This document shows, in pieces, positions 2,617 to 20,107 of a stretch of DNA of 64,000 bases. The notes beneath the pieces were generated by a model that was not told the DNA's origin, made no database searches, and was given only the letters and a program-made list of their open reading frames with translations. The translations under genes and the position numbers were made by a program. The DNA is from Antiquaquibacter metalliresistens (GTDB lineage Bacteria > Actinomycetota > Actinomycetes > Actinomycetales > Microbacteriaceae). The stretch lies in contig NZ_JARGEM010000006.1 in the NCBI RefSeq assembly GCF_029211225.1, positions 1 to 64,000 on the forward strand, in the 5' to 3' direction. How positions within the stretch are numbered: position 1 is the stretch's first letter; every line of letters begins with the position of its first letter.

Positions 2617-2667
2617 AGTCTGTCTCCTTCCTGTTTGCGGCTGGCGGCTGCGAGATCGCTGAGCGAT

Positions 2668-2695
2668 ACCCTATACCCCTAGAGGGTAGTATAGG
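2668..2695. promoter_or_regulatory. CsoR-type copper operator
   Basis: The stretch CTATACCCCTAGAGGGTAGT, followed by ATAG, is an interrupted inverted repeat (CTATA..CCCCT / AGGG..TATAG) with the C-run/G-run core of CsoR sites. It sits between the divergent NTPase gene and csoR, 22 bases before the csoR ATG at 2717. TAGTAT/TATAGG could serve as an overlapping -10. CsoR would repress both directions until Cu(I) binds. Confidence 0.65.
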
Positions 2696-2716
2696 ATGGT
2701 GAGCGGAGGTGCAGAT

Positions 2717-3004
2717 ATGCATGGTCATGGCTACGTGGACGACAAGGGCGCCCTGCTGAAGCGGCTTCGGCGAGCTGAGGGTCAGGTTCGCGGCATTGCC
2801 CGGATGATCGAGGAGGATGCGTACTGCATCGACGTGATCACCCAGGTTTCCGCCGTCAAGAGCGCTCTCGAGTCGGTCGCTCTTGCCCTATTGGAGGACC
2901 ACCTCACGCACTGCGTCGCTGAAGCCACCGCAACGGGTGGACCCGTCGCTGAAGCCAAGCTGCGCGAGGCGAGCGACGCGATCGCCCGGCTCGTGCGCTC
3001 TTGA
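2717..3004 (+). CDS. csoR: CsoR-family copper-sensing repressor
   Basis: A 95-residue all-helical repressor. From the ATG at 2717 the Cu(I) ligand set is complete: Cys37 (AYCIDV), His62 and Cys66 (DHLTHC), one residue offset from the well-studied mycobacterial CsoR positions, with the second-shell Tyr36 also present. The opening LLKRLRRAEGQVRGI is the family signature. The start at 2717 is preferred over the in-frame ATG at 2696 because GGAGG (2705-2709) lies 7 bases before it and 2696 falls at the operator edge. It represses its own operon (csoR-copZ-copA) through the operator just upstream and releases DNA when Cu(I) binds. Confidence 0.93.
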   Translation: MHGHGYVDDKGALLKRLRRAEGQVRGIARMIEEDAYCIDVITQVSAVKSALESVALALLEDHLTHCVAEATATGGPVAEAKLREASDAIARLVRS

Positions 3005-3039
3005 ACCGCACCTAACTTCCCATCACGAAAGGATCATCC

Positions 3040-3393
3040 ATGTCTGTTTCCGAAATCCGCGACCTGGGTCTTACCGACAAGAACTCCGGTTGCGCCTGTT
3101 GCACCCCGAGCGGTCATAGCGCCGCGGCCCCCAAGGATGTCGCGAGTGCACTCGAGCCTGCTGCAGCGGGCGTTGTGGTGACCGACTATCTCGTTGATGG
3201 GATGACTTGCTCGCACTGCGTGCGCAGCGTCACGGAAGAACTGTCCGCGATCACCGGCGTCACCAACGTGGATGTGGCCCTGAACGCGGGCGGAATCTCC
3301 CGCGTCCGGGTCGCCAGCGCTGCACCGCTCGACGACGGTCAGGTGCGAGGGGCGGTCGAGGAGGCCGGGTACACGCTCGCACCGGTGTCATGA
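3040..3393 (+). CDS. copZ: CopZ-like copper chaperone with Cys-rich N-terminal extension
   Basis: A 117-residue protein. Residues about 46-117 are a heavy-metal-associated domain with the Cu(I) site GMTCSHC and the usual ferredoxin-like fold ending in AGYTLAPV. About 45 extra residues precede it and contain a CACC cluster (about residues 18-21), which is longer than a plain 70-residue CopZ and could bind another metal ion. An AAGGA motif precedes the ATG. It would carry Cu(I) to the CopA pump encoded next; its TGA overlaps the copA ATG (ATGA at 3390-3393), showing translational coupling. Confidence 0.88.
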
Positions 3394-5669
3394 GCGCGAT
3401 CGATGTCGATCTCGACATCACCGGGATGACCTGCGCGTCCTGCGCAACCAGGATCGAGCGGAAGTTGAACAAGCTACCCGGCGTCGAGGCCACCGTGAAC
3501 TTCGCCACCGAGAAGGCCCATGTGCGCTCCGCTGACGTGCCCATCGATGAGCTCATTGGTGCGGTGGAAGCGGCCGGCTACGCCGCCGTTGTTCCCGCGC
3601 CGCCGAACGCGGGTGGCGTGGATGGGCCAACGGCGAAGGACGAGGAACTCCTCGGGCTGCGTCGCCGCTTGATCATCTCCGCGGGCCTCGCCGCACCGGT
3701 CGCGGTGCTGTCGATGATCCCCGCCCTGCAGTTCACCAACTGGCAGTGGCTAGCCCTGACCCTGGCCGCACCGGTTGTGGTGTGGGGGGCGTGGCCGTTC
3801 CACCGTGCCGCGGCGGTGAATGCTCGGCATGGGGCCGCCACGATGGATACCCTCATCAGCGTCGGTGTGCTCGCCGCGTTCGGCTGGTCGCTGTACGCAC
3901 TGTTCTTCGGCTCGGCCGGGATGCCCGGGATGCAGATGAGCGTCCAGCTGATCGGTACGCCACAGGCCGGCGGGCACGAGCTGTACCTCGAGACTGCCGC
4001 GATCGTCACGGTGTTCATCCTTGCCGGTCGCTACATGGAGACCCGCGCGAAACGACAGTCCGGCGAGGCGCTCCGCGCGCTGTTGGAGCTCGGCGCGAAA
4101 GACGCCACGGTGCTCCGGAACGGGGTCGAGGCCCGCGTCGCTGTCGACCAGTTGGTTCCCGGCGACACCGTCTTGGTGCGCCCCGGTGAGAAGATCCCTT
4201 CTGACGGGCTGGTTCTGGAGGGTGCCTCCGCGGTCGATGAGAGCATGCTCACCGGCGAGTCAGTTCCGGTCGAGGTCGCCCCGGGCGCACACGTGACCGG
4301 GGCAACCGTCAACGTCGGCGGCGTGCTCGTCGTGCAGATCACCCGCACGGGCGCGGACACCGAGCTGGCACGCATGGGACGCCTCGTGGAGGAGGCCCAG
4401 ACCGGCAAGGCCCAGGTGCAGCGCCTCGCCGACCGGGTCTCGGCCGTCTTCGTGCCCGTCGTCATCGGCCTGGCCCTGGTCGCGTTCACCGCCTGGATGA
4501 TCGCCGGCGCCGGCCCGGAGCTTGCGTTCACCGCGGCGGTGACGACCCTGATCATCGCGTGCCCGTGTGCGCTGGGACTCGCAACCCCGACGGCGCTGCT
4601 GGTCGGCACCGGTCGCGGGGCGCAGCTGGGCATCTTGATCCGCGGCCCGCAGGTGCTGGAGCAGACCCGCCGCATCGACACTGTCGTTCTCGACAAGACC
4701 GGGACCATCACCGCCGGGATGATGACCGTCACTGGCATCCACCCCGTTCCCGGCGTCCACACCGACGAACTGCTGCGGTACGCCGCCATCGTGGAGCACG
4801 GCTCCGAGCACCCCATCGGACGCGCCATCGCCCAAGCCGCACCCGTCGCCGAGCCGGCGGAGGAGTTCACCGCGCATCCCGGCGATGGGGTGCAGGCCGT
4901 CGCCGAGGGGCACCTCATCGTGGCAGGCCGCGCCGACTGGCTCCGCGGGCAGTGGGCCCTCGTCGTGCCAGACGCGCTCGCCGCGACGATCGCCGCCGAG
5001 GAGGCTCGTGGAGCGAGCGTCGTCGCGGTCGCCTGGGACGGCCAGCTCCGCGGGGCCATCAGCGTCGCCGACACGGTCAAACCCACCAGCGGCGAAGCCG
5101 TGGCACGCCTCAAGCGCCTCGGACTCACCCCGGTGCTGCTGACCGGCGACAACCCCGGCGCCGCGCAAGCGATCGCTGCGATGGTCGGCATCAGCGATGT
5201 GCGCGCGGGCGTCAATCCCGCGGGCAAGCTCGAGGTCATCCGAGCGTTCCAGGCGGATGGACACGTGGTAGCGATGGTCGGCGACGGGGTCAACGACGCA
5301 GCCGCGCTGGCCGCCGCGGACCTGGGGATCGCGATGGGCACCGGCACCGACGCGGCCATCACCGCCGCCGACCTCACGATTGTCAGCGGGGACTTGCTGC
5401 TGGTTCCGGACGCGATCCGACTCGCCCGCCGCACCCTCGGCACAATCAAGGGCAACCTGTTCTGGGCCTTCGGCTACAACGTCGCCGCGATCCCCGTCGC
5501 GATGCTCGCCCTGCTCAACCCGATCTTCGCCGGAGCGGCGATGGCGCTGTCCTCCGTGTTCGTCGTCACCAACAGCCTCCGGCTGCGCCGCTTCCACCTG
5601 CTCCCGGCACCCGTCAGCAGTCATCCCACCACCATGCACTCGAACGCCTCTGCGGCAGCGCGAGCCTGA
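3390..5669 (+). CDS. copA: Cu(I)-exporting P1B-type ATPase CopA
   Basis: A 759-residue membrane pump. In order: an N-terminal HMA domain with MTCASC at residues 13-18; membrane helices; the actuator loop with TGES; the CPC ion-binding motif at 391-393; the phosphorylated Asp435 in DKTGT; an HP locus (SEHPIGR); the ATP hinge [10 protein letters not shown]; and C-terminal helices with YNVAAIP and MALSS, the residues typical of the Cu(I) group P1B-1. It expels Cu(I) from the cytoplasm using ATP. The start is the ATG overlapping the copZ stop; the frame is open further left but that part lies inside copZ. It forms an operon with csoR and copZ under CsoR control. Confidence 0.95.
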
Positions 5670-5859
5670 GATACCAACCCGTTCGCAGGTCGAGAGGAGC
5701 AGCGGTGGGACCTTCGGCCCCATACGGCAGACCGGGCAGGCGGAAGTATCGAGGCACGGTGGTCCCGCCCAGGTTTGACGTGCGATCCTGGGGCTGGATG
5801 CCTTACCCCTGTTTCTCGGGGGGCAGGGAGTTAGCCTTGGGTGTGAGGGAGGTGGGCGC
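5670..5859 (+). promoter_or_regulatory. Intergenic region before the second copper operon
   Basis: No gene is seen. A TTGACG at 5775-5780 could be a -35 element, although no good -10 follows at the right distance. TTACCCCTGTTTCTCGGGG at about 5803-5821 has a C-run/G-run arrangement reminiscent of, but spaced differently from, the CsoR operator at 2668-2695. The region probably carries the promoter for the DUF6153-to-ATPase run; the regulator assignment is a guess. Confidence 0.35.
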
Positions 5860-6297
5860 ATGAAGACGATCCGCTCACTGGCGAGCACACACTCGAGCAT
5901 GCATCGCATCGTGTTCACTCTCGGATTCGCCCTCGCGCTCATCGCAGGTCTGCTCGCGATGCACACGCTCGGCGTCGGCGACACCCACGTCGACTCCGGC
6001 CTTACCGCGTCTGCCTCCGACCATGGTCAGGTTGGGGCCGCCACGGATCGCACAGCGGTCGATCCTGGTCACTGCGCGGGTGAGTGCGGGGCTTCGAGAG
6101 ACATGCCCGAACACTCGATGTTGCTGATGGTCTGTGCGCTGGCGTTGCTCGCCGCCGTCATCGTCATCTTGGCTCCAGCCTTGCTTGCCCGCTTCAGCAC
6201 GTCTCTGGGCATGACGATGCTCGTTCGTCACGCCGTCCGCGCGGTGCCGCGACTACGACCACCCTCACTGCTCGTCCTGTCCATCAGCCGGACCTGA
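5860..6297 (+). CDS. DUF6153 family membrane protein
   Basis: A 145-residue protein with an N-terminal membrane helix (about 18-38) that ends in a short outer segment rich in His, Asp and Gly, then CAGECG and DMPEHSM, then a second helix (about 88-110) and a basic tail. This layout, two helices flanking a His/Cys/Met-containing loop, matches DUF6153 proteins found beside copper genes in Actinobacteria. The loop could bind metal at the outer membrane face, but no function is established. It opens the second plus-strand copper run; a GGGAGGTGGG-type ribosome site precedes the ATG. Confidence 0.7.
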   Translation: MKTIRSLASTHSSMHRIVFTLGFALALIAGLLAMHTLGVGDTHVDSGLTASASDHGQVGAATDRTAVDPGHCAGECGASRDMPEHSMLLMVCALALLAAVIVILAPALLARFSTSLGMTMLVRHAVRAVPRLRPPSLLVLSISRT

Positions 6298-6394
6298 TTC
6301 GCCCCCCTTCCCGGGCTCGCCGGGAGGATGCTTCGCCCTACCCGGGCGGCCGAATCACGACCCGTTTTCCGACTGATATCAAAGGACTTACACA

Positions 6395-7003
6395 ATGAGA
6401 TTTCGCACAATCGCGCTGGCCTCCGGCGCACTCATCACCACCGTTTTGGTGCTGACCGGCTGCGCCCAGAGCAGCACTACGGGCGCAATGCCCGGCATGG
6501 ATCACGGATCCACGCCCATGACGCCTTCCGAGAGCACGAGCGATGTCAACTTCGCCGATCAGACGTTCGTGACCATGATGATCCCCCACCACGAGCAGGC
6601 CGTCGAGATGGCCGACCTCGTTCTTGGCAAGGATGGCATTGACGAGCGGGTGAGTGATCTCGCCCAACAGATCAAGGACGCTCAGGGCCCGGAGATCGAG
6701 ACCATGAAATCCTGGCTCTCGGCCTTGGACACCCCCTACGACAGTTCCGAGACCGGCGGCATGAATCACGGCGGCGGGATGATGTCCGACGACGACATGG
6801 CGGCGCTGGAGTCCGCCACCGGCGTCGAGGCGAGCCGGCTGTTCCTGGAGCAGATGATCCTGCACCACCAGGGGGCCATCGACATGGCGCAGACCGAGCT
6901 GATCACCGGCCAGAATGCGGATGCCCTTGCTCTGGCCCAGACGATCATCGACGCGCAGGCCGCCGAGATCGCCACCATGCAGAACATCCTCGGCACCCTC
7001 TAA
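6395..7003 (+). CDS. DUF305 domain lipoprotein
   Basis: A 202-residue lipoprotein with a signal peptide ending in the lipobox LTGC (Cys at about 23), then a Met/His-rich segment (MPGMDHGS) and two repeats of the DUF305 motif: MMIPHHEQAVEMADL and MILHHQGAIDMAQTEL, each a paired His followed by Met. DUF305 is a four-helix, ferritin-like fold common next to copper oxidases and pumps; the paired His and Met suit Cu binding outside the membrane. A second Met/His cluster (GGMNHGGGMM) links the repeats. It is likely a periplasm-side copper-binding protein cotranscribed with its neighbours. Confidence 0.88.
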   Translation: MRFRTIALASGALITTVLVLTGCAQSSTTGAMPGMDHGSTPMTPSESTSDVNFADQTFVTMMIPHHEQAVEMADLVLGKDGIDERVSDLAQQIKDAQGPEIETMKSWLSALDTPYDSSETGGMNHGGGMMSDDDMAALESATGVEASRLFLEQMILHHQGAIDMAQTELITGQNADALALAQTIIDAQAAEIATMQNILGTL

Positions 7004-7107
7004 GGTCGGCCTCCGTGCGTGCTGCGGCTGACCCTGCGGGGCGGCCGCAGCACGCACCTCGAACCTCGACGGGCACCGCCTTGTCGAACTCAGATTGGAC
7101 CGTATTC

Positions 7108-7209
7108 ATGAGCACACGCTCTATTGCACTCTTCTTGTTCGGCGCTGTGATCCTTGCCGTCGCCCTCGGCGTCGCCGTGATCGCGATCTTCACCATCGGA
7201 GCAGTATGA
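7108..7209 (+). CDS. 33-residue single-helix membrane peptide
   Basis: ATG at 7108 opens a 33-codon frame: MSTRS, then an almost unbroken hydrophobic helix (about residues 6-31), ending in GAV. The TGA at 7207-7209 overlaps the ATG of the next gene (ATGA at 7206-7209). That overlap and the clean membrane-helix composition argue that it is a real coding unit, although the ribosome site is weak. It may be an accessory subunit or a coupling leader for the downstream lipoprotein. No family was recognised. Confidence 0.55.
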   Translation: MSTRSIALFLFGAVILAVALGVAVIAIFTIGAV

Positions 7210-8090
7210 ACCGCACACACGCGCTCGCGCTGGCCTCCGGCCTGGCCGCCGTCGTAAGCGCCACCGTCCTGTTGTCCGGCTGCTCAACCGGGCCCACCTC
7301 GCCACCGGCGAGTCCTGTGGTGAGCTTCGCACACGTCCACGAACTCGTCCTCGGTCAGCAGGAGGGCGATCTTCTGGTCGGCACCCATGAGGGCCTCTAC
7401 CGGCTGCTGATCGACTCCGACGGCGCCAGCACCGCAACTGGTCCACTTGGTGGCCTCGACTTCGACCCAATGGGGTTCACCATGGCCGAGAACACCGCCT
7501 ACGCCTCTGGACATCCGGGCCCTACCACCCCGGCAAGCTTCGGCAGCCCGAATCTCGGGCTCATCACCAGCACTGACCTCGGCGAGACTTGGAGCAACGT
7601 CTCGCTGACCGGTGTGACCGACTTCCACGCCCTGGCCGTGATGACCAGCGACGCCGAGTTCCCACAGGTTTTCGGCATCGACCCGGGTAATCCGCGACTG
7701 CAACGCAGCACGGACGGCGGGCGAACCTGGGGCGACGGAGCCGAGCTGGTCGCGCGTGACATCCTCGTGGTCGGCACCACGCTCTACGCGACGACTCCGG
7801 AGGGGCTGGCCGTCAGCGAGGACGATGGGATGACCTTCATTCTCGATCCCGCCGCACCGGCCCTTTACCTTGTCGCCGTAGATCGCCGGGGTGGCCTCGC
7901 TGGCGTCGATACGACCGGCACGCTGTGGACCCGCGGCCCCGGCGAGGACTGGGATCACGGCCACACCGTGACCGGGACACCGCAGGCCGTGGCCGTCGAC
8001 GGGGCACGTATCTATGTCGCCGACGACCGGGGCATCGCCTTCACCGAGGATTCGGGCGCAACGTGGATCGTGCTCGAGGTGCGCGGATGA
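7206..8090 (+). CDS. BNR-repeat lipoprotein (F510_1955-type glycosylhydrolase-like)
   Basis: A 294-residue protein with a lipoprotein signal (LLSGC, Cys at about 26) followed by a beta-propeller. Four Asp-box motifs are visible: STDLGETW, STDGGRTW, SEDDGMTF and TEDSGATW. These mark sialidase/BNR-like propellers, but none of the catalytic Arg-triad context of true sialidases is evident, so an enzymatic role is doubtful. The same architecture is repeatedly found beside copper genes in Actinobacteria. The ATG overlaps the stop of the 33-residue peptide. It probably sits on the outer face of the membrane; its role in metal handling is unknown. Confidence 0.8.
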   Translation: MNRTHALALASGLAAVVSATVLLSGCSTGPTSPPASPVVSFAHVHELVLGQQEGDLLVGTHEGLYRLLIDSDGASTATGPLGGLDFDPMGFTMAENTAYASGHPGPTTPASFGSPNLGLITSTDLGETWSNVSLTGVTDFHALAVMTSDAEFPQVFGIDPGNPRLQRSTDGGRTWGDGAELVARDILVVGTTLYATTPEGLAVSEDDGMTFILDPAAPALYLVAVDRRGGLAGVDTTGTLWTRGPGEDWDHGHTVTGTPQAVAVDGARIYVADDRGIAFTEDSGATWIVLEVRG

Positions 8091-8166
8091 GTCGCGAGGC
8101 GGGGACCTTCGCCTCTCGAACACCAAGGACCACCAGGACAGCATCGACTGACGAGAGAGGACTGGC

Positions 8167-9663
8167 ATGAACTCCGAGATCCGCAACGCGAACCTGACCA
8201 GGCGCGGCTTCCTTGCCGTCGGCACCGGAACGCTCGCCGCGATCGCGCTTGCTTCGTGCGCTGCGCCACCGCGATTCGTCACCCCGACCGGGGCGCCGGT
8301 GCGGCAGGCTGAGCTGGCCCGCGGTGGCACGGGGCGGGTCACGAGCGTCGAGCTGGTCGCCTCCCCGACGCAGGTGGACCTCGCCGGTACCGTGGCGAAC
8401 ACCTGGAGCTTCGGGTCGGTACCGGCGCCGACGATCCGGCTGACGGCAGGGGACACCCTGCGCGCGAACGTGCGTAATCGGCTCCCGGCTGACACGTCCG
8501 TGCACTGGCACGGCCTCGCGCTGCGTAATGACATGGACGGGGTTCCCGGGGCGACCCAGGGCCCGATCGGGGCCGGGGAGGACTTCAGCTACGAGTTCGT
8601 CGCCGCCCAACCGGGCACGTATTGGTTCCACCCGCATGTCGGCGCGCAACTGGACCGCGGCCTGTATGGCGCCCTCATTGTCGACGACCCGAACGAACCC
8701 CTGGGCTACGACGACGAGTGGGTGGTCATCCTCGATGACTGGCTCGACGGGGTGACCGGCACCCCAGACGAGGTGCTCGAGGAGCTGCGCGGCGGGATGG
8801 GCGGAATGATGGGCAACGGCGGTGGCCACATGATGATGGGTGCCCGCTCGGCGTTGCTCGGCGGGGACGCGGGTGACGTGTTCTACCCGCACTACCTCAT
8901 CAATGGCCGCCCGCCGGCGGACCCGGAGACGTTCACCAGTGCCCCCGGACGGCGGGTTCGGATCAGGATCATCAACGCGGGCAGCGATACGGCGTTCCGG
9001 GTGGCGCTGGGCGGTCACCGGCTCACCGTCACCCACAGCGACGGATTCCCGGTGAACCCGGTGGATACCGACGCGATCCTGATCGGCATGGGCGAACGCT
9101 ACGACGCTCTGGTCACGCTCGGTGACGGTGCGTTCCCGCTCATCGCCGCGGCGGAGGGCAAAGGCGAGACGGCGCTGGCTATCGTGCGCACCGGATCCGG
9201 TGATACCCCGCGGGCGTCGGAGACCATCCCCGAACTGACCGGGTCGGTCCTCACGGCGGGCGCGCTCGCCGCCGACCCGAGCGTCGCGTTCCCGGATCGC
9301 GCGGTCGACCGTGAGCTGACGGCGAGGCTGTCCGGCTCGATGATGGCCTACGACTGGGCGATCAACGGTCGCCGGTTCGACCCGGCCGACCCCTTGGCGG
9401 GCGCACTCGCGGTGGCGCAGGGCGAACGGGTGCGGCTGCGCATCGAGAACACCACCCAGATGTGGCATCCGTTCCACCTGCACGGGCACACCTACCAGCA
9501 CTCCGGCGCGGGACCGCGCAAGGACACCTCGATCATCCTGCCTGGTCAGTCCTTGACGGTCGACTTCGACGCCGACAACCCGGGACTCTGGGCTGCACAC
9601 TGCCACAACATCTACCACGCCGAGGCCGGGATGATGACCATCCTCGGCTACCAGGCCACCTGA
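8167..9663 (+). CDS. Multicopper oxidase (CueO-like), Tat-type export signal
   Basis: A 498-residue oxidase. TRRGFL near the N-terminus followed by a hydrophobic run is a twin-arginine signal, and ASC could serve as a lipobox. All four copper-ligand blocks are present: HWHGL (His113), HPHVG, HPFHLHGH, and HCHNIYHAEAGMM (His478-Cys479-His480, with a downstream Met as type 1 ligand). A Met-rich loop (GGMGGMMGNGGGHMMMG) in the middle resembles the Cu(I)-binding insert of CueO-type cuprous oxidases. It would oxidise toxic Cu(I) to Cu(II) outside the membrane, using oxygen. It lies between copper-linked lipoproteins and a second P-type ATPase. Confidence 0.93.
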   Translation: MNSEIRNANLTRRGFLAVGTGTLAAIALASCAAPPRFVTPTGAPVRQAELARGGTGRVTSVELVASPTQVDLAGTVANTWSFGSVPAPTIRLTAGDTLRANVRNRLPADTSVHWHGLALRNDMDGVPGATQGPIGAGEDFSYEFVAAQPGTYWFHPHVGAQLDRGLYGALIVDDPNEPLGYDDEWVVILDDWLDGVTGTPDEVLEELRGGMGGMMGNGGGHMMMGARSALLGGDAGDVFYPHYLINGRPPADPETFTSAPGRRVRIRIINAGSDTAFRVALGGHRLTVTHSDGFPVNPVDTDAILIGMGERYDALVTLGDGAFPLIAAAEGKGETALAIVRTGSGDTPRASETIPELTGSVLTAGALAADPSVAFPDRAVDRELTARLSGSMMAYDWAINGRRFDPADPLAGALAVAQGERVRLRIENTTQMWHPFHLHGHTYQHSGAGPRKDTSIILPGQSLTVDFDADNPGLWAAHCHNIYHAEAGMMTILGYQAT

Positions 9664-9689
9664 CAACCCAGTAGGAAGAAGCAGAGAAC

Positions 9690-12302
9690 ATGCAAGAACG
9701 AACCGTCGTCCTGGAAGTATCCGGTGTCCAGTGGGCGTCCTCGAAGTCCGTCGTGGAATCGACCCTCCTCCGCCAACCGGGCGTCATCTCCGTGGAGGCC
9801 AACCCGGTCTCCCAGACGGCGAACGTCTCCTACGACCCCGAAACCACCTCGCAGGCCCACTTGCGCCAGTGGATCATCGAATGCGGATACCACTGTGCCG
9901 GCCAGTCCGTCCCGAACCATATCTGCGATCCCGCCCACGACTCCCACCAAGCATCCCTGGGCCACCACCACATGCCCGCGACCCAGGAACACACGGTGCC
10001 TGACGACAGTCCGCTTCCTCCGGAGCCGACGCAGGAGCACGCAGAACACGAACACGCAGGGCATGAGCATTCGGGGCACGAGTCGATGACCGGACACGAA
10101 GCGCACAGCGCCGCGCCGGTCGCGGCCGACCCGACGGCGCCCGACCACACTGCGGCTGACCCCGCCGCGGCAGGCACTGTGGACCACTCGGGTCATGCCG
10201 GCCACGGCACACCGGCGCGGAGCAGTCAGGATGTGATGGGGCACGGCGGCGGCCACGCCGGCATGTCGATGGCGTCGATGATCCGCGACATGCGCAACCG
10301 GTTCCTGGTCGCGGCGATCCTGTCCGTGCCGATCATCCTGTGGTCCCCGATCGGCCGGGAAGTGTTCGGGTTCACCGTCCCGGCCCCGTTCGGGCTGCGG
10401 GATGACGTGTTTTCGCTGGTCCTGTCGCTGCCGGTGATCTTCTACTCGGCCTGGATCTTCTTCGACGGCGCCTTCCGGGCGCTGCGGGCACGGACCCTGG
10501 ACATGATGGTGCTGGTCGCCGTCGGCGTGGGTTCCGGCTGGCTCTACAGCGTCATCGTGACCCTCACCGGCGGCGGTGAGGTGTTCTACGAGGCCGCCAC
10601 GGTGCTGGCCGCGTTCGTGCTGCTCGGCCACTGGGTCGAGATGCGTGCCCGCGGCGGCGCGAACGACGCCATCCGCACCCTGCTGGAGCTCGCCCCGGCG
10701 CGGGCGGTCGTGCTCCGCGACGGGGAAGAGGTCGAGGTGCCCACCGCCGAGGTGGTGCCCGGAGACCTGATGCTGGTACGCCCCGGCGCGAAGGTCCCCA
10801 CCGACGGGGAGGTCGAGGAGGGTGACTCCGAGATCGACGAGTCGATGGTCACCGGTGAGTCCCTGCCGGTGGAGAAGACGCCGGGCTCCGCGGTGATCGG
10901 GGCGACGGTGAACACCACCGGCACCCTGCGGGTGCGGGCCACGAAGGTCGGGGCTGACACGGCGCTGGCGCAGATCGTGGCCCTGGTGCAGGAGGCGCAG
11001 AACTCCAAAGCGCCCGGACAGCGCCTGGCGGACCGGGCCGCGTTCTGGCTGGTGCTGGTCGCCCTGATCGGCGGAAGCGCGACCTTCCTGGTCTGGTGGC
11101 TGACCGGCGCCCCCGTGCCGACTGCGATCCTGTTCGCCATCACCGTCGTGGTCATCACCTGCCCCGATGCCCTGGGCCTGGCCACCCCGACCGCGATCAT
11201 GGTCGGCACTGGCCTCGGCGCCAAACGGGGTGTGCTGTTCAAGAATGCCAGCGCCCTGGAATCCGCCGCGCACATCGACACTGTCGTCCTCGACAAGACC
11301 GGCACCCTGACCAAGGGCGAACCCGAGGTCACCGACTACCTGCCGATCGGGATGGACGACATCGAGCTGTTGTCCCTGGCCGCCGCCGCGGAACGCGAGT
11401 CCGAGCATCCCCTGGCCAAGGCGGTCGTCGCCTACGCCGACGCGCGCAAGATCCCCCGGCGCACGGCCACCGCGTTCCGCAACGTCACCGGGCTCGGGGC
11501 GGTGGCGACCGTGGACGGACGCCGGGTGGTGATGGGCAACGCCCGGCTGATGGCCGAGGAGGGAATCGACATCAGCACCATCTCGGCGGCGCAGAACGAT
11601 CTGGCCGCCACCGGCCGCACGGCGATCGCGTTCGCCGTCGACGGGAAGGCAGCCGGGGTGATCGCCCTTGCCGACGCGCCGCGGGAGACCGCCGCGGCCT
11701 CGATCGCCGCCTTGCACGAGTCCGGCATCGAGGTCGTGATGCTCACCGGCGACAACGAGCCCACCGCCCGACGGATCGCCTCGCTGCTGGGCATCGACAC
11801 CGTCATCGCCGAGGTCCTCCCGCAGGACAAGTCCGCCAAGATCACCGAGCTGCAGCAGGCCGGGAAGAAGGTCGCGATGGTCGGCGACGGCGTCAACGAC
11901 GCCCCCGCCCTGGCTCAGGCCGACCTCGGCATCGCGATCGGCGCCGGGACGGATGTCGCGATCGAGACCGCCGATGTGGTGCTGATGCGCTCGGACCCGC
12001 TGGATGTTCCGGTCGCGCTGCGCATCGGCAAGGGCACCGTTCGCAAGATGCGGCAGAACCTGGGCTGGGCCATCGGCTACAACGTCATCGCCCTGCCCAT
12101 CGCCGCCGGCGTGTTCTTCCCGGCGTTCGGCATCATGCTCAGCCCGGAGATCGCCGCGATCAGCATGTCCGGCTCGAGCGTGATCGTCGCCGTCAACGCC
12201 CTGCTGCTGAAGCGACTCCACCTTCCCGCCCCGGCCGCGCCCACCCCCGCCGAACCAACGACGGCGAGCAGTCCCGCGCCCGTCCCCACCGGCACCCGGT
12301 AG
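9690..12302 (+). CDS. P1B-type metal ATPase with CPD motif and His-rich N-terminus (CopB-like)
   Basis: An 870-residue pump. Residues 1-70 have the fold of an HMA domain but lack CxxC (VQWASSKS instead). A long His/Asp/Glu-rich linker (about 75-185) follows, then membrane helices, TGES, an ion-site motif Cys491-Pro492-Asp493 where most Cu pumps have CPC, the phosphorylated Asp535 in [22 protein letters not shown], and C-terminal YNVIALP and MSGSS. The rest of the signature (MSxSS, YN) fits Cu/Ag pumps, so the Asp is the oddity. It probably exports copper or silver; specificity is uncertain. It follows the oxidase by 26 bases. Confidence 0.88.
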
Positions 12303-12360
12303 ACGCCGCCCGCAACCGCTCGATCCCACACAGGTACCACGCAGAGAAAGCGATGAACTG

Positions 12361-14778
12361 ATGAACACACGCTCTACTCCCACAGACGTCGATCCGGTCC
12401 TGGACCCGGCGCAGCTGGAGCGCATCAACGCCTGGTGGCGGGCGGCGAACTATCTCTCGGTCGGGCAGATCTACCTGCTGGACAACCCGCTGCTGCGGGA
12501 GCCGCTGCTGCCGGAGCACATCAAGCCCCGGCTGCTCGGGCACTGGGGCACCACGCCGGGGCTGAACTTCATCTACGCCCACCTGAACCGGGCCATCATG
12601 GAGCGCGACCTGGACACCATCTACGTGATGGGTCCGGGTCACGGCGGCCCCGGCCCGGTCGCGGCGGCCTGGCTAGAGGGCACCTACACCGAGACGTACC
12701 CGGACATCACCCGGGATGCCGACGGGATGCGTCGCCTGTTCCGGCAGTTCTCCTTCCCCGGCGGCATCCCCAGCCATGTCGCGCCGGAGACGCCCGGGTC
12801 GATCCACGAGGGCGGCGAGCTGGGCTACGCCCTCTCTCACGCCTACGGCGCGGCGTTCGACAACCCCGACCTGATCGTCGCCGCGGTGGTCGGCGACGGG
12901 GAGGCCGAGACCGGGCCGCTGGCAGCGAGCTGGCAGTCCAACAAGTTCGTCGACCCGGCGCGGGATGGCACGGTGCTGCCGATCCTGCACTTGAACGGGT
13001 ACAAGATCGCCAATCCCACGGTGCTGGCGCGGATCACCCCGGAGGAACTCGACCACCTGCTGCGCGGCTACGGGCACACCCCGTTCTACGTCGAGGGCGA
13101 CGACCCGGCGCGGATGCACCAGGACTTCGCCCGTGCCCTGGACGCCTGCCTCGATGAGATCCACGAGATCAAGCGCCGGGCGCGCGCCGGCGACACCGGG
13201 CGGCCGCGCTGGCCGATGATCGTGCTGCGCTCCCCGAAGGGATGGACCGGGCCCAAGGAGGTGGACGGCAAGCAGGTGGAGGGCACCTGGCGTGCCCATC
13301 AGGTGCCGTTCGCCCAGGCGCGGGAGAACGACGGGCACCGCGCCATCCTCGAGCAGTGGCTGCGCAGCTACCGGCCCGAGGAGCTCTTCGACGAAGACGG
13401 CGCCCCCGTTCCCGTGCTGGCCACGCTGCACCCGTCCGGCACCCGCCGGATGAGCGCCAACCCGCACAGCAACGGCGGCGGGCTGCTGAAGGATCTGCGG
13501 ATGCCGGACTTCCGCGACTACGCCGTGCCGGTGGAGACGCCAGGCACGGCCACCGGGGAATCCACCCGCGTCCTCGGCACCCTGCTGCGGGACGTGATGG
13601 CCGGCAACATGGAGACCTTCCGGGTGTTCTCACCCGACGAGAACAACTCCAACCGGCTGGACGCCGTGCTCGAGGCCACCAACCGCGCCTGGAATGCCGC
13701 CACTATTCCAGGTGACGACCACCTCGCCCCAGACGGGCGGGTGATGGAGATTCTCTCCGAGCACACCATCCAGGGCTGGCTCGAGGGGTACCTGCTCACC
13801 GGACGGCACGGGTTCTTCTCCTGCTACGAGGCATTCATCCACATCGTCGACTCCATGTTCAACCAGCACGCCAAGTGGCTGGACACCACCAACAGCATCC
13901 CCTGGCGCCGCCCGATCGCCTCCCTGAACTACCTGCTCACCTCGCACGTCTGGCGGCAGGACCACAACGGCTTCTCCCACCAAGACCCGGGGTTCATCGA
14001 CCACGTCGTGAACAAGAAAGCGGACGTGATCCGGGTGTACCTGCCGCCGGACGCCAACACCCTGCTCTCGGTGGCCGACCACTGCTTGCGCAGCCGTCAG
14101 TACGTCAACGTCATCGTCGCCGGCAAGCAGCCCCAACTGCAGTTCCTGGACATCGAGCAGGCCATCGAGCACTGCGCCAAGGGCATCGGCATCTGGGACT
14201 GGGCCAGCAGCGACGACGGGCAGGAACCCGATGTCGTCATGGCCTGCGCCGGCGACGTGCCGACCCTGGAGACCCTCGCTGCGGTGACGATTCTCAAGAC
14301 GCACTTCCCCGACCTGCGCATCCGGGTGGTCAACGTCGTGGACCTGATGCGACTGCAGGACGAGCGGGCACACCCGCACGGGCTCTCCGACCGAGACTTC
14401 GACGCCCTGTTCACCACGGACACGCCGGTGGTCTTCGCCTACCACGGCTACCCGACGCTGATCCACCGGCTGACCTACCGGAGGGCAAACCACGGCAACC
14501 TGCACGTCCACGGCTATCAGGAGGAGGGCACCACCACCACGCCGTTCGATATGTGCGTGCTCAACGAGCTCGACCGGTTCCACCTGGCCATCGACGTCAT
14601 CGACCGGGTGCCACGGCTGCGCGACGTCTCCGCGCACGTCCGGGAGGAACTGCGCAACGCCCTCATCCGGCACAGCGCCTACATCCGCGAGCACGGCCAG
14701 GACCTCCCCGAAATCCGCGACTGGACGTGGGGCGGGGAGGACAAAGTTCCTCCGGCTCAGGGCGGTGCGCCCAGATGA
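12361..14778 (+). CDS. xfp: Phosphoketolase (xylulose-5-P/fructose-6-P)
   Basis: An 805-residue thiamine-diphosphate enzyme of normal family length. Recognisable blocks are [18 protein letters not shown] near residue 60, [28 protein letters not shown] for Mg/ThDP binding, and C-terminal [14 protein letters not shown]. It converts X5P plus phosphate to acetyl-phosphate and glyceraldehyde-3-phosphate, or F6P to acetyl-phosphate and erythrose-4-phosphate. It lies 58 bases after the metal ATPase and overlaps the next gene (ATGA at 14775-14778). No acetate kinase or phosphotransacetylase is seen nearby, so acetyl-phosphate must be used by enzymes encoded elsewhere. Confidence 0.94.
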
Positions 14779-17700
14779 ACGGGGCGCCCGGCATCCAGGG
14801 TGCTCACGACCTGGATGCGGTCTATGACGCGGTCCTCTTCGACATGGACGGTGTAGTCACCAACACCGCCGCGATTCACGCCGCCGCGTGGAAGCAATTG
14901 TTCGACCAGGTGCTCCAGGACCCGCGTGTTCACGTGGACGATCCCGAGAGGACCTTTGACGCGGTCACGGACTACCGCCGATATGTCGACGGCCGCAGCC
15001 GTGAAGATGGCGTGTCCGCCTATCTGGACGCCCGGGGGATCACACTTGAGCCTGGCAAGCCTGACGACCCCCCGGAGGCGTGGACGGTCGCCGGGCTCGC
15101 CGCCCGCAAGAACGACCTATTCCTGGCAGAGCTCGGCGCGCGCGGACTGCGCTCCTACCCCGGGACGACGGCGCTGCTCACCCGGCTACGCAACGCCGGC
15201 GTTCCGGTCGGCCTGGTCACGGCAAGCCGCAACGCGCGGCAGATGCTCGCGGCGGCCCAGCTCACGGAGCTGTTCGACACCGTCGTGGACGGTCAGATCG
15301 CCTTGGAGCAGAGACTACCCGGCAAACCGGACCCGGCGATGTTCTTGGAGGCAGTCAAACGCCTGGGTGTCACACCGGCGCGCGCCGCCGTCGTCGAGGA
15401 CGCCGTCTCGGGGATCGAGGCCGCCCGTCAGGGTGGATTCGGGCTCGTCGTCGGGATCGCCCGTCAGGGCCACCGCGAGGAGTTCGAGGCGGCCGGGGCG
15501 GACATCGTCCTGAACGATGTGGGCGAACTCGATCTGGGCGCGAAGGTCGCCGATCCGTGGGTACTCGTCTATCACGGGTTCGACCCGGCCCACGAGGGGC
15601 ACCGCGAAGCGTTGACGGCCCTGGGCAACGGGTACCTGGTCACCCGGGGTGCCCGCCCGGAACACACCGATGACGGAACCCACTACCCCGGGACATACCT
15701 CGCAGGGGTCTATAACCGCCTCGTCAGCAGCATCCACGGCCGGAGCCTGGAGGAGGAGCACCTGGTCAACGTGCCCAACTGGCTCCCGCTGGACATTCGG
15801 GTCGGCAACGGTCCGTGGTGGTCGAGCGGGCGAGTCACGACGCACGAGGAACGGCGCGAGGTGAACCTGCGGTCGGGAATATCGACCCGTTGGGTGACGC
15901 TCGTGGGTCCGCGCGGGAAGCGTCTGAGCGTCGTGCAGCGATCTTTCGTCTCGATGGAAGATCCGCACCTGGCGGTGCTGGAGACCACGGTCGTCGCGCT
16001 CGGGTGGGGCGGCTCGGTCACCCTCCGGGCGGGCGTCGACGCCGGTGTCCGCAACACCAATGTCGCCGCCTACCTTGGGTCCGACACCAGTCATCTGTCT
16101 CCGCCGACGTTCACGCAGGTCGGCGACATCCTCCTCTGCGAGGTGCAGACCAAGCAGAGCCAGATACGGATCGCCACGGCCATCCACCTGCACCTCACCG
16201 GGGCGGACGCAGCATGGCAGGAGGCGGGCACGAGACACGGACGTCGATACAGCAGGGAGGTCGAGCTCACACTGGTGGGTGGGGAGCCGGCGACGCTCAC
16301 CAAGACGGCCTCGATCTTCACCTCCCGCGACTCGGCGATCGCCTCACCGGGGACGGCCGCTGTCAAGCGACTCCACGACCACGCCGGGGACACCGTCGGC
16401 GCACTCGATCGTCACCAGGCCGCCTGGGAACGACTCTGGCAGCGCTTCGCCATCACCATCGACGCTGACCCGCGCAGCCAACTCGTGCTGAACCTTCACA
16501 TCTTCCATGTGCTGCAGAGCCTCTCACCCCACACTGCCGACCTGGACGCGGGCGTGCCGGCCCGCGGCCTGCACGGAGAAGGCTACCGAGGACACGTCTT
16601 CTGGGACGAGCTGTTCGTGCTTCCCGTGCTCGGTCTGAGGCTGCCCCCGGTCGCCCGCGCCCTGCTGGACTACCGATGGCATCGTCTGGCAGCCGCCCGC
16701 ACAGCCGCACGAGAGATCGGCCTGCCGGGTGCGCTCTTCCCCTGGCAAAGCGGCAACGATGGCCGAGAGGAGACACCGGACCAGATCTACAACCCTCGCT
16801 CCGCACGATGGATGCCCGACAACTCGCGCCGCCAGCGGCATGTGGGGCTGGCGGTCGCCTACAACGCCTGGCAGCACTACCAGGTCAGCGCCGACCGCGA
16901 CTGGCTCGCCGAGCGAGGTGCGGAACTCATCATCGAGGTCGCCCGGTACTTCGCCGCCTCCGCCGTGCACGACCCCGCGACCGACCGCTTCCACATCGCC
17001 GGCGTGATGGGCCCCGACGAGTACCACGACGGCTACCCCGACGCCCCGGGAGAAGGGGTCCGCGACAACTCCTACACCAACGTGATGGTCGCCTGGGTGT
17101 GCCACCGCGCCGGTGACGCACTTCAGGAACTGGTCGGCCACGCCCGCGACGATGTCATCGACCGTCTGCGAATCGACGACGACGAGATCGCGCGCTGGGA
17201 ACACGTGAGCCGGCGCCTCGCCGTCCCGGTCCATGCCGACGGGGTCCTCAGCCAGTTCGACGGGTACGAGAGCCTCCTCGAACTGGATTGGGCGGGCTAC
17301 TGGGACCGGTACGGGAATATCGGTCGCCTCGACCTCATCCTCGAGTCCGAGAACGACACCACCAACCGGTACAAGCTGGCCAAGCAACCCGACGTCGTCA
17401 TGCTCGTCTATCTGCTCGGCCAGGACGGACTGAGACAACAGCTGGGCCGCCTCGGCTACCCGTTCTCGCAGGACGACCTCGTCCGCACCGTCGCCTACTA
17501 CCTCGAGCGCACCGCGAACGGGTCCACGCTCAGCCGAGTCGTGAACGCCTCAGTTCTCGCCGGCCTCGACGAGTCCCGGTCGTGGTCCCTGTTCCGTGAG
17601 GCGCTCATCGCCGACCTGGACGATACCCAAGGGGGAACGACCCGCGAAGGCATCCACCTCGGAGCGATGGCCGGCACCGTCGACCTCATCGCTCGATCCT

Positions 17701-17978
17701 TCGCCGGCCTGCAATTCGACTCGAAGCAGATCAGCTTCGCACCACGACTCCCAACACGACTGGCGGACCTCCGCTTCCAGTTCGCCTACCGCGGGCACCG
17801 GATCGACGTCGACCTGAACCACGAAACCCTCCACGTCCACCTTCTTCCCAGCCTTGCGCCACCGATCCGGTTCAGAACAGGGGAGACCCGGGTGTCGCTG
17901 GCCGGGGACGAATCCCATGACTTCCCGCTGACCCGCATTCCCAATTCGCACGACACGATGAGAAAGGCACCTTCATGA
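14775..17978 (+). CDS. Beta-phosphoglucomutase (HAD) fused to GH65 disaccharide phosphorylase
   Basis: A 1067-residue fusion. Residues about 15-240 are a HAD hydrolase with the nucleophile pair Asp23/Asp25 in LFDMDGV, a TASRNARQ motif and [12 protein letters not shown], typical of beta-phosphoglucomutase. From about 258 to the end is a GH65 enzyme with the catalytic acid Glu749 in [10 protein letters not shown] and [10 protein letters not shown]65 enzymes split trehalose, maltose or kojibiose with phosphate to give beta-glucose-1-phosphate, which the HAD half would turn into glucose-6-phosphate, so the fusion could channel it. The exact disaccharide cannot be read. The start overlaps the phosphoketolase stop, and the end overlaps the GAPDH start. 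Confidence 0.9.
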
Positions 17979-19024
17979 ACAAGATCCAAGTCGGCGTCAA
18001 CGGCTACGGGGTAATTGGCAAGCGCGTCGCCGACGCAATACTGCTGCAGCCGGACATGGAGCTCGTCGGCGTCGCGGATATCGCGACTGACTGGCGCATC
18101 AAGTCCGTAACCAACCGGCTGCCCCTGTTCGCCTCGACGGAGGACGCGAAGGTGGCGATGATCGCCGCCGGGCTGCGACCGCTGGGGACACTCGACGAGT
18201 TGCTGGAGCTCTCCGACATCATCATCGACACCACGCCCAAGCATGTGGCGGCAGGCAATCTGGATCGGTACCGCACGGCGGGGGTCAAGGCGGTGTTCCA
18301 GGGCGGCGAGTCCCACAAGACGACCGGACACTCCTTCGTCGCTCAGGCAAATTACGAGAGCGCCCTCGGCCGGGACACCACCCGGGTGGTGTCCTGCAAC
18401 ACGACCAGCATCGTCCGGGTGCTGGGAGCACTCGACAACGCGGGACTCCTCCTGCGCGCCCGCGGCGTGCTCATCCGCCGCGCCACAGACCCGTGGGAGT
18501 CGCACTTGGGCGGCATCATGAACACGATGGTCCCCGAGCCCACAATCCCCTCGCATCAAGGCCCCGACGCGCAGACCGTGCTACCCGGCCTCGACCTGGT
18601 CACCATCGCAGCCAAGGGTGCCCACACCCAGACGCACAGCCACTTCTGGACGCTCCAGCTGACCCGAAAGGCAACGAGGGAGGAAGTGTTGAGCGCCCTT
18701 CGCGCCGCGCCACGCATAGCCTTCATCCGGACGTCTGATGGTCTGGTTGCGCTCAACTCGACGATTGAGCTGATGCGTGACCTCGGTCGCCCCCGAGGCG
18801 ATATGTGGGAAGTGGCCGTGTGGGAGGACCTCGTGACTGTGCAGGGCGATGAGGCATTTCTCACCTATCAGGTCTACAACGAAGCGATCGTCGTCCCCGA
18901 AACCATCGACGCGATCCGAGCACTGACCCGGACCGCCCCCGACGCCGCCTCCTCGATGCACATCACCGATACCACGCTGGGGATGCTCCAGGACTTCCTG
19001 CCACCCACCGCGCCAAACAGCTGA
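17975..19024 (+). CDS. gap: Type II (archaeal-type) glyceraldehyde-3-phosphate dehydrogenase
   Basis: A 349-residue enzyme. The N-terminal Rossmann motif is GVNGYGVIGKRVADA, the catalytic cysteine is Cys141 in VVSCNTTS, and the following segments (ALDNAGLL, RRATDPWES, AAKGAHTQTHSHFW) match the archaeal-type family rather than the usual bacterial GapA, whose active site reads SCTTN. The family oxidises glyceraldehyde-3-phosphate to 1,3-bisphosphoglycerate and often accepts NADP as well as NAD. Its ATG overlaps the GH65 stop (17975-17978), so it belongs to the phosphoketolase operon and would use the triose phosphate that phosphoketolase releases. This type is uncommon in bacteria and suggests transfer. 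Confidence 0.9.
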   Translation: MNKIQVGVNGYGVIGKRVADAILLQPDMELVGVADIATDWRIKSVTNRLPLFASTEDAKVAMIAAGLRPLGTLDELLELSDIIIDTTPKHVAAGNLDRYRTAGVKAVFQGGESHKTTGHSFVAQANYESALGRDTTRVVSCNTTSIVRVLGALDNAGLLLRARGVLIRRATDPWESHLGGIMNTMVPEPTIPSHQGPDAQTVLPGLDLVTIAAKGAHTQTHSHFWTLQLTRKATREEVLSALRAAPRIAFIRTSDGLVALNSTIELMRDLGRPRGDMWEVAVWEDLVTVQGDEAFLTYQVYNEAIVVPETIDAIRALTRTAPDAASSMHITDTTLGMLQDFLPPTAPNS

Positions 19025-19055
19025 ACTCAAGTAGCACTACACGAAGGAGAAAACG

Positions 19056-19817
19056 ATGGCTATGGAGTCAATATCAGGGCGCTTCGCCGGGAAGACCGCC
19101 GTGGTCACTGGTGCCGGATCCGGCATCGGCAAGGCCACAGCGGTGCGCCTCGCGCAAGAGGGCGCCCGGGTGGTGGCCACTGACATCAGTGAGCCGCGGC
19201 TGCAGCAACTGAGCGCCGAGCTGGCGGCTTTCGGCCTTGTGACGGTGGTTGGCGACGTCAGCTCGCAGGCCACCGTTGACGCCGTTCTTGAGGCGGCGCA
19301 GGGACGCGTGGATGCCCTCGCCAATGTCGCCGGGATCATGGATGGTTTCCTCCCGCCTGCCGAGATCGAGGACGACATCTGGCAACGGGTCATGGACGTG
19401 AACGTCACCGCGATCATGCGACTGACCCGCGCCGTACTTCCTTCGATGATTCAGGCCGGCAGCGGCTCGATCGTCAGCGTCACCTCGGAAGCGGGCCTGC
19501 GCGGATCCGCCGCCGGCACCGCCTACACGACCTCCAAGCACGCCGTCATCGGCTTCACCAAGAGCACCGCGTTTTTCTACACACCCAACGGTGTCCGGTG
19601 CAACGCGGTCGCGCCCGGGGGCGTCGTGACCAACATCGAGGCACCCTTCAAGTCTCAGTTCGCCGGCGAACGACTCGGACCCTTTATGCAGGTCAACGTC
19701 CCTCCGCTTGCCACCTCCGAGGAGCTCGCTGCGGCAATCACCTGGCTGCTCAGCGACGACTCGACCAACATCTCCGGCGCCGTGCTTCCGAGCGACGGCG
19801 GCTGGACCGCCATCTGA
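19056..19817 (+). CDS. SDR-family oxidoreductase
   Basis: A 253-residue classical short-chain dehydrogenase: TGAGSGIG cofactor motif (about 19-26), DVSSQ after the third strand, NVAG (about 90), the catalytic Ser in VSVTSEAG, YTTSK as the Tyr-Lys pair, and the C-terminal SGAVLPSDGGW. An Asp after the second strand (VVATDIS) points to NAD(H). AAGGAG at 19044-19049 lies 6 bases before the ATG. It is 31 bases after the GAPDH stop and probably the last gene of the operon. The substrate is unknown; sugar or sugar-alcohol oxidation would suit the context but is a guess. Confidence 0.88.
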   Translation: MAMESISGRFAGKTAVVTGAGSGIGKATAVRLAQEGARVVATDISEPRLQQLSAELAAFGLVTVVGDVSSQATVDAVLEAAQGRVDALANVAGIMDGFLPPAEIEDDIWQRVMDVNVTAIMRLTRAVLPSMIQAGSGSIVSVTSEAGLRGSAAGTAYTTSKHAVIGFTKSTAFFYTPNGVRCNAVAPGGVVTNIEAPFKSQFAGERLGPFMQVNVPPLATSEELAAAITWLLSDDSTNISGAVLPSDGGWTAI

Positions 19818-20017
19818 CGGCCATGCACACGCCAGCCCATCGCGGTGGGGCGGGCGCTAAGGCTGCTCTCCTTCGTGTTCCAGCTTCACCGCGGCGGTCA
19901 CCTCATCAATGTGACGGTCGGTCACCGCAGCGTGAGCGCCCTGGGTGGCTACCTTCTTTGGACCATGCGACGGCGGCGATGACACTACTTCCGTCTCAAG
20001 GTGAGAGAGGCATATCA

Positions 20018-20107
20018 GTGAACAAGATCCAGGTCGGTGTCAACGGCGGGCGTAGGAGACAGCGCGTCGGCTCTCGCGGCCGTGAAGATTCCGGCGACCG
20101 ACCGTGA
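20018..20107 (+). pseudogene. Decayed start of a second type II GAPDH gene
   Basis: GTG at 20018, preceded by GAGAGAGG, encodes [10 protein letters not shown]; 27 of the first 30 bases match the start of the intact GAPDH gene at 17975. After that the match fades, though a shared GCGCGTCG recurs after a 3-base shorter interval, and the frame stops after 29 codons. It therefore looks like the remains of a duplicated or rearranged copy. The 200 bases between the SDR stop (19817) and this point show no gene. Confidence 0.55.

Follow-up and report, generated by a model that had tools for sequence, protein, structure and literature searches.

Known actinobacterial copper operons controlled by CsoR or RicR carry csoR and its operator, copZ, copA and a multicopper oxidase (MCO). 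The same components open a run of genes in Antiquaquibacter metalliresistens, on contig NZ_JARGEM010000006.1 of assembly GCF_029211225.1, of which the first 64,000 nucleotides were analysed (hereafter, the window). To these components, the window run adds a CPD-type P1B-ATPase (CPD pump), a phosphoketolase (PK), a beta-phosphoglucomutase-like domain (beta-PGM, or PGM in gene layouts) fused to a GH65 enzyme, and a type II glyceraldehyde-3-phosphate dehydrogenase (GAPDH2). No description of a copper operon with a type II GAPDH or a phosphoketolase was found among the titles and abstract openings covered in the open-licence PMC literature, which is not proof of absence.

Drug-insensitive isozymes of target enzymes are kept with the genes for the poison, the pentalenolactone-resistant GAPDH being one example. 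The logic would be the same here, namely a spare, tougher copy of a poisoned enzyme, whereas the proposed poison in the present case is a metal ion and the insensitivity is a prediction. Copper can affect the usual enzyme: one study of Staphylococcus aureus reports that copper in the cell associates with the type I GAPDH, GapA, that Cu(I) inhibits this enzyme, an effect that a chelator reverses, and that GapA, aldolase, transketolase and CysK are increased under copper stress (PMC6350627). The original prediction for this DNA held that copper inactivates classical GAPDH through its active-site cysteine; the inhibition of GapA agrees with this, but the passages that describe it do not name the cysteine.

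On balance, we consider it somewhat probable that the window run is a copper-resistance operon to which a central-carbon backup module has been added, all under CsoR control. Such a second set of sugar enzymes, housed in the copper clusters of actinobacteria from soil and water, may sustain energy metabolism while copper disables the usual enzymes.

Linkage of type II GAPDH to copper genes

A scan of the genome collection returned 278 relatives of the window GAPDH2. The 80 best-scoring ones were retrieved together with flanks of at most 10 kb, a choice that leans towards close relatives. These loci (L numbers; G numbers denote genomes) comprise 45 from actinobacteria and 35 from other phyla, and many end at contig ends. 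Among the 45 actinobacterial loci, 38 carry a CPD pump and 40 carry any P1B-ATPase, together with GH65 (31), an EamA transporter (30), PK (27), an MCO (19) and a CsoR relative (16).

An order-wide sample of 396 genomes from the window's order, in which CPD pumps were accepted at E up to 1e-220, gave a similar picture. Type II GAPDH was present in 10 genomes, the CPD pump in 16 and both in six; without the window's own genome, the overlap is five of nine against 0.34 expected (p 4e-6). Pump and GAPDH2 lie within about 6 kb on one contig in five of the six shared genomes, and on different short contigs in the sixth. The beta-PGM/GH65 query matched in 25 genomes of the sample. Nine of the ten genomes with type II GAPDH also have a type I enzyme. 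A P1B-ATPase is found in eight of eight type II loci and in none of 16 type I loci, a difference (Fisher 1.4e-6) that is tempered by three of the eight copies coming from one genus, so that the p-values are optimistic. The type I comparison loci come from 16 genomes and span 20 kb each except two (14.0 and 12.7 kb), while the eight exclude G016 and G030, on contigs of 11.3 and 5.7 kb with no CsoR box, as well as G163.

Linkage of GAPDH2 to copper genes is strongly supported in actinobacteria, and is weaker outside them. The suggestion that the copper and sugar blocks belong together is supported: their adjacency goes beyond chance and, far from being rare elsewhere, their co-location is seen in many genomes.

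CsoR-type operators

The pattern TACCC-N5-GGGTA, the core of the CsoR operator, is enriched in the present analysis. Its sole exact match in the window, TACCCCTAGAGGGTA at 2674-2688, is one of four in the genome and lies 15.3 kb from the window's GAPDH2. Across the ten order-sample genomes with type II GAPDH, the exact pattern has 45 matches against nine for a reversed control. It occurs 23 times, in 18 loci, among the 45 actinobacterial loci and three times, in one locus, among the 35 others, the reversed control giving none in either set. In loci of about 20 kb from the order sample, an exact box is present in seven of eight around type II GAPDH and in none of 16 around type I (Fisher 2.3e-5).

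The box heads several different layouts. It precedes csoR in the window, L152 and L153, and csoR-GAPDH2 in L033, L035 and L102, with L033 and L102 reading box-csoR-GAPDH2-CPD pump-EamA. In L038, L040, L042 and L045 it stands roughly 200-500 bases before GAPDH2 itself (box-GAPDH2-CPD pump). Elsewhere, it heads a (copZ-)copper ATPase-DUF305-GAPDH2 run (L089, L103, L104, L105) or precedes CPD pump-PK-GH65-GAPDH2 (L022, L087).

The window repressor gene, csoR, occupies 2696-3004 as its longest frame (PF02583, 106.6 bits), and a start at 2717 is likelier than one at 2696, judged by eye from the GGAGGT that precedes 2717. In the numbering of the longest frame, the protein has the spacing C44-x24-H69-x3-C73, and these residues are presumably its metal ligands. 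The C-x24-H-x3-C spacing is found in 23 of 26 CsoR-family sequences, the window's included, and in all nine encoded directly upstream of GAPDH2. The RicR model scores 142.8 bits against the window protein, below its cut-off of 175, and equivalence to RicR is therefore not assigned.

Conserved order and other layouts

A search for the same gene order elsewhere, as the original prediction proposed, found it slightly rearranged in six genomes (L148, L149, L152, L153, L154 and L155), four with an exact box and two with a one-mismatch box before csoR. In L152-L155, from Microbacterium, Agrococcus, Agromyces and another member of the Micrococcales, the order is csoR-copZ-copA-DUF6153-DUF305-F510-PK-CPD pump-PGM-GH65-(GAPDH2); two of these stretches stop before GAPDH2, which is seen in L013 and L012. 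L148 (Pseudolysinimonas) and L149 (Schumannella) have the order box-P1B-ATPase-csoR-DUF305-F510-MCO-CPD pump-PK-PGM-GH65-GAPDH2. DUF6153 is at the equivalent place in five of the six loci that share the window's order. A second copy in the L154 genome, L150, consists of the pump-PK-PGM-GH65-GAPDH2 part and has no csoR within 20 kb.

Related gene sets are also carried on plasmids. For example, a Rhodococcus plasmid encodes PK, beta-PGM/GH65, the pump and GAPDH2, followed by a BlaI/MecI/CopY regulator, and a Pseudarthrobacter plasmid encodes the pump, PK, HAD/GH65 and GAPDH2. On a Corynebacterium marinum plasmid, a two-component pair, an HMA protein, a copper ATPase, DUF305 and GAPDH2 adjoin an aldolase, GH65, PK and a copper-binding four-helix protein. 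Mycolicibacterium has pump-PK. Outside the actinobacteria, plasmid neighbourhoods vary more: on an Agrobacterium plasmid, CueR and a P-type ATPase adjoin GAPDH2, and other plasmids carry genes for fermentation or arginine deiminase. Further central-metabolism genes occur in the same islands, namely an aldolase in Corynebacterium and 6-phosphogluconate dehydrogenase and cysteine synthase in Rhodococcus (L089, L002).

The type II GAPDH

The window GAPDH2 (17975-19024) scores 426.9 bits with NF003251 (cut-off 185) and 307.6 with TIGR01546 (cut-off 232.9), and is homologous to the solved enzymes 1cf2, 2czc and 1b7g. It shares with these archaeal/type II enzymes the family, the catalytic cysteine and the PSH-GPD and HxH motifs, but differs in having Asp35 where 1cf2 has Lys33 and in residing in bacterial copper operons. 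Asp35 is invariant in 92 of 92 aligned sequences, which suggests the use of NAD rather than NADP. The enzyme had been described as unrelated to the usual GAPDH; it is instead a distant homologue, with Gp_dh_C matched over its cut-off.

The alignment and tree comprise 92 rows after identical rows were merged and matches covering fewer than 300 residues were excluded; rows left out were L062, L065, L104 and L095 (stop in the aligned stretch) and L001, L006, L116 and L142 (repeats). The catalytic Cys141 and the two histidines of the catalytic HxH motif, His221 and His223, are kept in all 92. An escape from copper for want of a vulnerable cysteine, as first supposed, is contradicted by this conservation. 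What the type II enzymes do lack is a cysteine at +4, where all 92 have Ser, Ala or Gly. Type I copies carry this second cysteine (SCTTNC) in 16 of 17 examined, a count in which those 16, of 22 scanned loci, were caught by a pattern that itself requires it. The remaining six loci are a type II fragment (L135), four weaker and longer GAPDH-like proteins (L137-L140) and L134, a type I enzyme with SCTTNA. L134 is the second type I copy of its genome (G355), whose type II GAPDH lies in a copper operon. Since the second thiol is missing, a lower Cu(I) affinity of type II than of type I GAPDH is plausible. A single cysteine in the whole protein is found in 37 of 52 actinobacterial GAPDH2 sequences and in 46 of 92 overall.

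In the tree, a main actinobacterial clade of 47 rows (100/99) stands apart from a second clade of five (100/99), which comprises the copper ATPase-DUF305-GAPDH2 layout, a Rhodococcus plasmid and Arthrobacter H14-L1. The Arthrobacter locus (L084) has the CPD pump-PK-PGM-GH65-GAPDH2 layout with a GAPDH of the second clade. By this placement one operon slot has been filled by two GAPDH lineages, which argues for selection on function. Near-identical GAPDH2 sequences in Agrococcus, Agromyces and Microbacterium point to recent transfer among these genera.

Given the recurrent linkage, the CsoR-type operators, the conserved order and the two GAPDH lineages, the sugar genes are likely to be controlled by copper.

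The second pump

Among described transporters, the second pump of the window (9690-12302; TIGR01511, 603.6 bits) most resembles the P1B-3a ATPases. This subtype is defined from three rhizobial proteins, one of them from Xanthobacter autotrophicus, by CPD, YN(X)4P, MSGSS and a His-poor N terminus (Cubillas et al. 2017, PMC5552934). The window pump shares the three motifs of that subtype table, with CPD in TM6, YN(X)4P in TM7 and MSGSS in TM8, but is actinobacterial, linked to GAPDH2 and His-rich at its N terminus, with 23 His within the first 200 residues. It is therefore best described as P1B-3a-like and was not filed as P1B-3a. A plasmid pump of X. autotrophicus has the same three motifs and a 49.8% match to the window pump, and its N terminus contains 13 His. 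Among 53 CPD frames longer than 600 residues in the fetched loci, YN(X)4P is found in all 53, and the TM8 motif reads MSGSS in 42, MSGST in nine and MAGSS in two.

CPD pumps also occur without GAPDH2. Of ten such pumps from order-sample genomes, eight have an exact CsoR box within about 150 bases, a count that includes L106 only if its gene starts at the second Met. In these eight loci (L106, L107, L108, L109, L110, L112, L113 and L114), the pump lies directly behind the box, and no type II GAPDH was found in the genome. The ninth has a box 2.7 kb upstream, heading DUF6153-DUF305-F510-pump-MCO, and the tenth, which lies where its contig ends, has none. Judged by these boxes, the solo CPD pumps are likely members of the copper regulon.

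Gene content and mobile setting of the window block

The block at 2674-21033 is a single-strand run, with all genes on the plus strand, from the CsoR-type operator to an EamA transporter; it lies on a 270-kb contig of a 3.07-Mb genome. Profile matches and frames agree with the first placement of csoR-copZ-copA, DUF305, MCO, second pump, PK, HAD-GH65, GAPDH2 and a short-chain dehydrogenase/reductase (SDR). To these can be added DUF6153, an F510_1955-type protein, the exact operator and the CPD, rather than CPC, motif of the second pump.

After csoR come a copZ-like HMA copper chaperone (3040-3393, PF00403) and copA (3390-5669), a P1B-1 copper ATPase with CPC in TM6 and MALSS (TIGR01511, 524.7 bits, cut-off 397). 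These are followed by a DUF6153 protein (5860-6297, PF19650), a DUF305 lipoprotein-like protein (6395-7003; PF03713, 156.5 bits), a 33-residue membrane peptide noted by eye (7108-7209), an F510_1955-type 'glycosylhydrolase' that is probably a beta-propeller (7206-8090; NF045728, 170.9 bits, just under the cut-off of 175) and the MCO (8167-9663), with three Cu-oxidase domains. The largest gap between frames from 2640 to 19820 is 190 bases (5670-5859) when the small peptide is counted, and otherwise 202 (7004-7205).

PK (12361-14778) begins 58 bases downstream of the second pump, as first reported, and the PK/GH65 and GH65/GAPDH junctions are indeed two ATGA overlaps of four bases. All three PK domains, XFP_N, XFP and XFP_C, score over cut-off, and NF003619 gives 1482 bits (cut-off 962). 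The fusion protein (14775-17978) matches PF03632 at 396 bits and PF00702 at 90 bits. Its HAD domain reaches the subfamily level (TIGR02009, 161.5 bits, cut-off 153.35) and falls short of the beta-PGM equivalog (TIGR01990, 101.8 against 189.4). The closest solved chain is 9lb6 (429 bits), labelled trehalose-6-phosphate hydrolase, followed by kojibiose phosphorylase; the GH65 part may act by phosphorolysis. Elsewhere, the host genome encodes a single type I GAPDH, another PK and two acetate kinases, and with these kinases present the host could use acetyl-phosphate. The cysteine content of PK is uninformative (six in the island copy, five in the other).

Behind GAPDH2 lie the SDR oxidoreductase (19056-19817, PF00106) and the EamA/DMT transporter (20104-21033, PF00892). 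SDR matches in other loci are few and weak (34-37%), one of them lying close to the GAPDH2 gene of a Sulfitobacter plasmid (L096), and EamA is also present in some Chloroflexi loci. Just before EamA, 20002-20047 is 85% identical over 47 columns to the GAPDH2 leader and first codons (E 1.8e-9), and this stretch appears to be a remnant of a second GAPDH2 copy.

No plus-strand terminator was listed for 2500-20200, in a scan whose number of sites was no higher than in shuffled sequence, and a sigma-70 scan did no better than shuffles. Scans for Rfam families and tRNAs found no match in the window, and a near-identity DNA search for plasmids with 8167-20100 gave no record with 80% of the query in one place.

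The block probably sits on a mobile island, as it is followed by a MobF relaxase/helicase (21442-24987) and preceded by a transposase tail (1-341, by eye). A Cad-family cadmium transporter lies at 25588-26202 on the minus strand and a glutamine synthetase starts at 27447; the island may end near 26-27 kb. In frame 46-939, the transposase tail runs into an M23 peptidase domain, and M23-type genes also occur in L144 and, on Rhodococcus plasmids, close to GAPDH2. L144 (G000:C5:1-12000) is a second copper-island piece of the same genome, with an exact CsoR box at 2660 and genes for DUF6153, M23 peptidase, acetate kinase, Lgt, ResB and cytochrome c assembly. A P-loop gene of the AAA_28 family adjoins the CsoR box at both sites (window 2095-2616; L144:2733-3071).

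Proposed mechanism and alternatives

A copper-induced backup module would work as follows. Copper would free CsoR from the operator at 2674, and the genes from csoR through GAPDH2 would then be expressed, the whole window run presumably forming one copper-induced transcript. CopZ/CopA, the CPD pump, DUF305 and MCO would clear copper, while the added enzymes would carry sugar metabolism past copper-poisoned steps. The type II GAPDH, which may tolerate more Cu(I), would substitute for the type I enzyme. PK could direct flux around the block, yielding acetyl-phosphate by a route that needs neither GAPDH nor the lipoyl-bearing pyruvate dehydrogenase, and GH65 with the beta-PGM domain would convert a glucosyl disaccharide to hexose phosphate with no ATP spent. 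This scheme draws on gene content, linkage, operator enrichment, CsoR ligand spacing, the two GAPDH lineages and the missing second active-site cysteine; as a whole, it is plausible. A broader version is target replacement, in which CsoR would switch on copper-tolerant stand-ins together with the pumps: GAPDH2 for type I, PK around GAPDH and the lipoyl pyruvate dehydrogenase and, on some plasmids, aldolase, 6-phosphogluconate dehydrogenase or cysteine synthase. We offer this version tentatively, as a real possibility that falls somewhat short of probable.

Several observations weigh against a copper-induced module. Outside actinobacteria, only nine of the 35 loci have a CPD pump, 17 any P1B-ATPase and nine EamA, and no PK or GH65 match in them exceeds the score threshold applied. 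Boxes with one mismatch show little enrichment in the actinobacterial set of 45 (37 against 18), and counts were based on exact boxes because of this weakness. L012, L014, L018, L020, L030 and L031 lack an exact box, either on the whole contig or at least within 70 kb, in a contig-wide check that left out G400, G406, G412, G413 and part of G404; a one-mismatch box precedes the csoR heading the run in the genomes of L012 (L155) and L020 (L154), and such boxes are common by chance. The boxes of L026 and L081 are only downstream, and that of G249 heads a copZ-copA run on the strand opposite to GAPDH2. For the enzymes, the invariant catalytic cysteine means that type II GAPDH may be equally copper-sensitive, and L134 shows that the second cysteine is not universal in type I. 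Because the host has a second PK and two acetate kinases, PK is not specific to the copper state. In addition, copper inhibits the pentose phosphate pathway of S. aureus via Prs, according to another study (PMC10249872), which could limit the substrate of PK.

The neighbours of GAPDH2 in other phyla keep a general energy-stress island as the main rival, an unlikely one in our view. PK, GH65 or glucan phosphorylase, GAPDH2, acetate kinase and arginine deiminase would here supply ATP through substrate-level phosphorylation during respiratory failure caused by low oxygen, NO or metals. Copper would be one switch among several and type I poisoning beside the point. Some plasmid neighbours do suggest fermentation or low oxygen, since GAPDH2 lies near acetate kinase in Acidovorax, arginine deiminase genes in Sulfitobacter and pyruvate:ferredoxin oxidoreductase (PFOR) in Phenylobacterium. 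In Meiothermus (L091), the GAPDH2 island holds glucan phosphorylase, pfkA and aldolase, and it is established biochemistry that PK, GAPDH and phosphorylases alike use inorganic phosphate. However, actinobacterial operators and neighbours are of copper type, a spare GAPDH brings no ATP gain while type I works, and in L103 and L104 GAPDH2 stands alone behind copper ATPase-DUF305, with no PK or GH65 match in 20 kb.

Neutral accretion, in which sugar genes hitchhike with copper genes in gene-collecting mobile islands, would fit the relaxase and transposase tail that flank the block and the transfer among Agrococcus, Agromyces and Microbacterium. It is improbable, as the same gene set recurs in differing orders and strands, with tight overlaps and operators, and pure hitchhiking was set aside because recurrent layouts and two GAPDH lineages argue against it. 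Least probable of all is that GAPDH2 and EamA make and export a phosphoglycerate derivative, as in the GAPDH-ArsJ arsenate system: the frequency of EamA in GAPDH2 loci of both sets would fit, but the operators are CsoR-type, EamA is not ArsJ (an MFS permease), and an arsenic system was set aside with no arsenic family, whether ArsJ permease or ars genes beside GAPDH, among the matches for the scanned open reading frames (2095-24987).

Implications for copper resistance

Copper resistance is usually described as export, oxidation and binding. If a copper-induced backup module is the right reading, cells would in addition protect the very pathway that copper poisons, and the genes recruited would show which steps copper hits in nature. 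Bacterial type II GAPDH would gain a function in context, and uncharacterised CPD pumps would be placed in the CsoR regulon.

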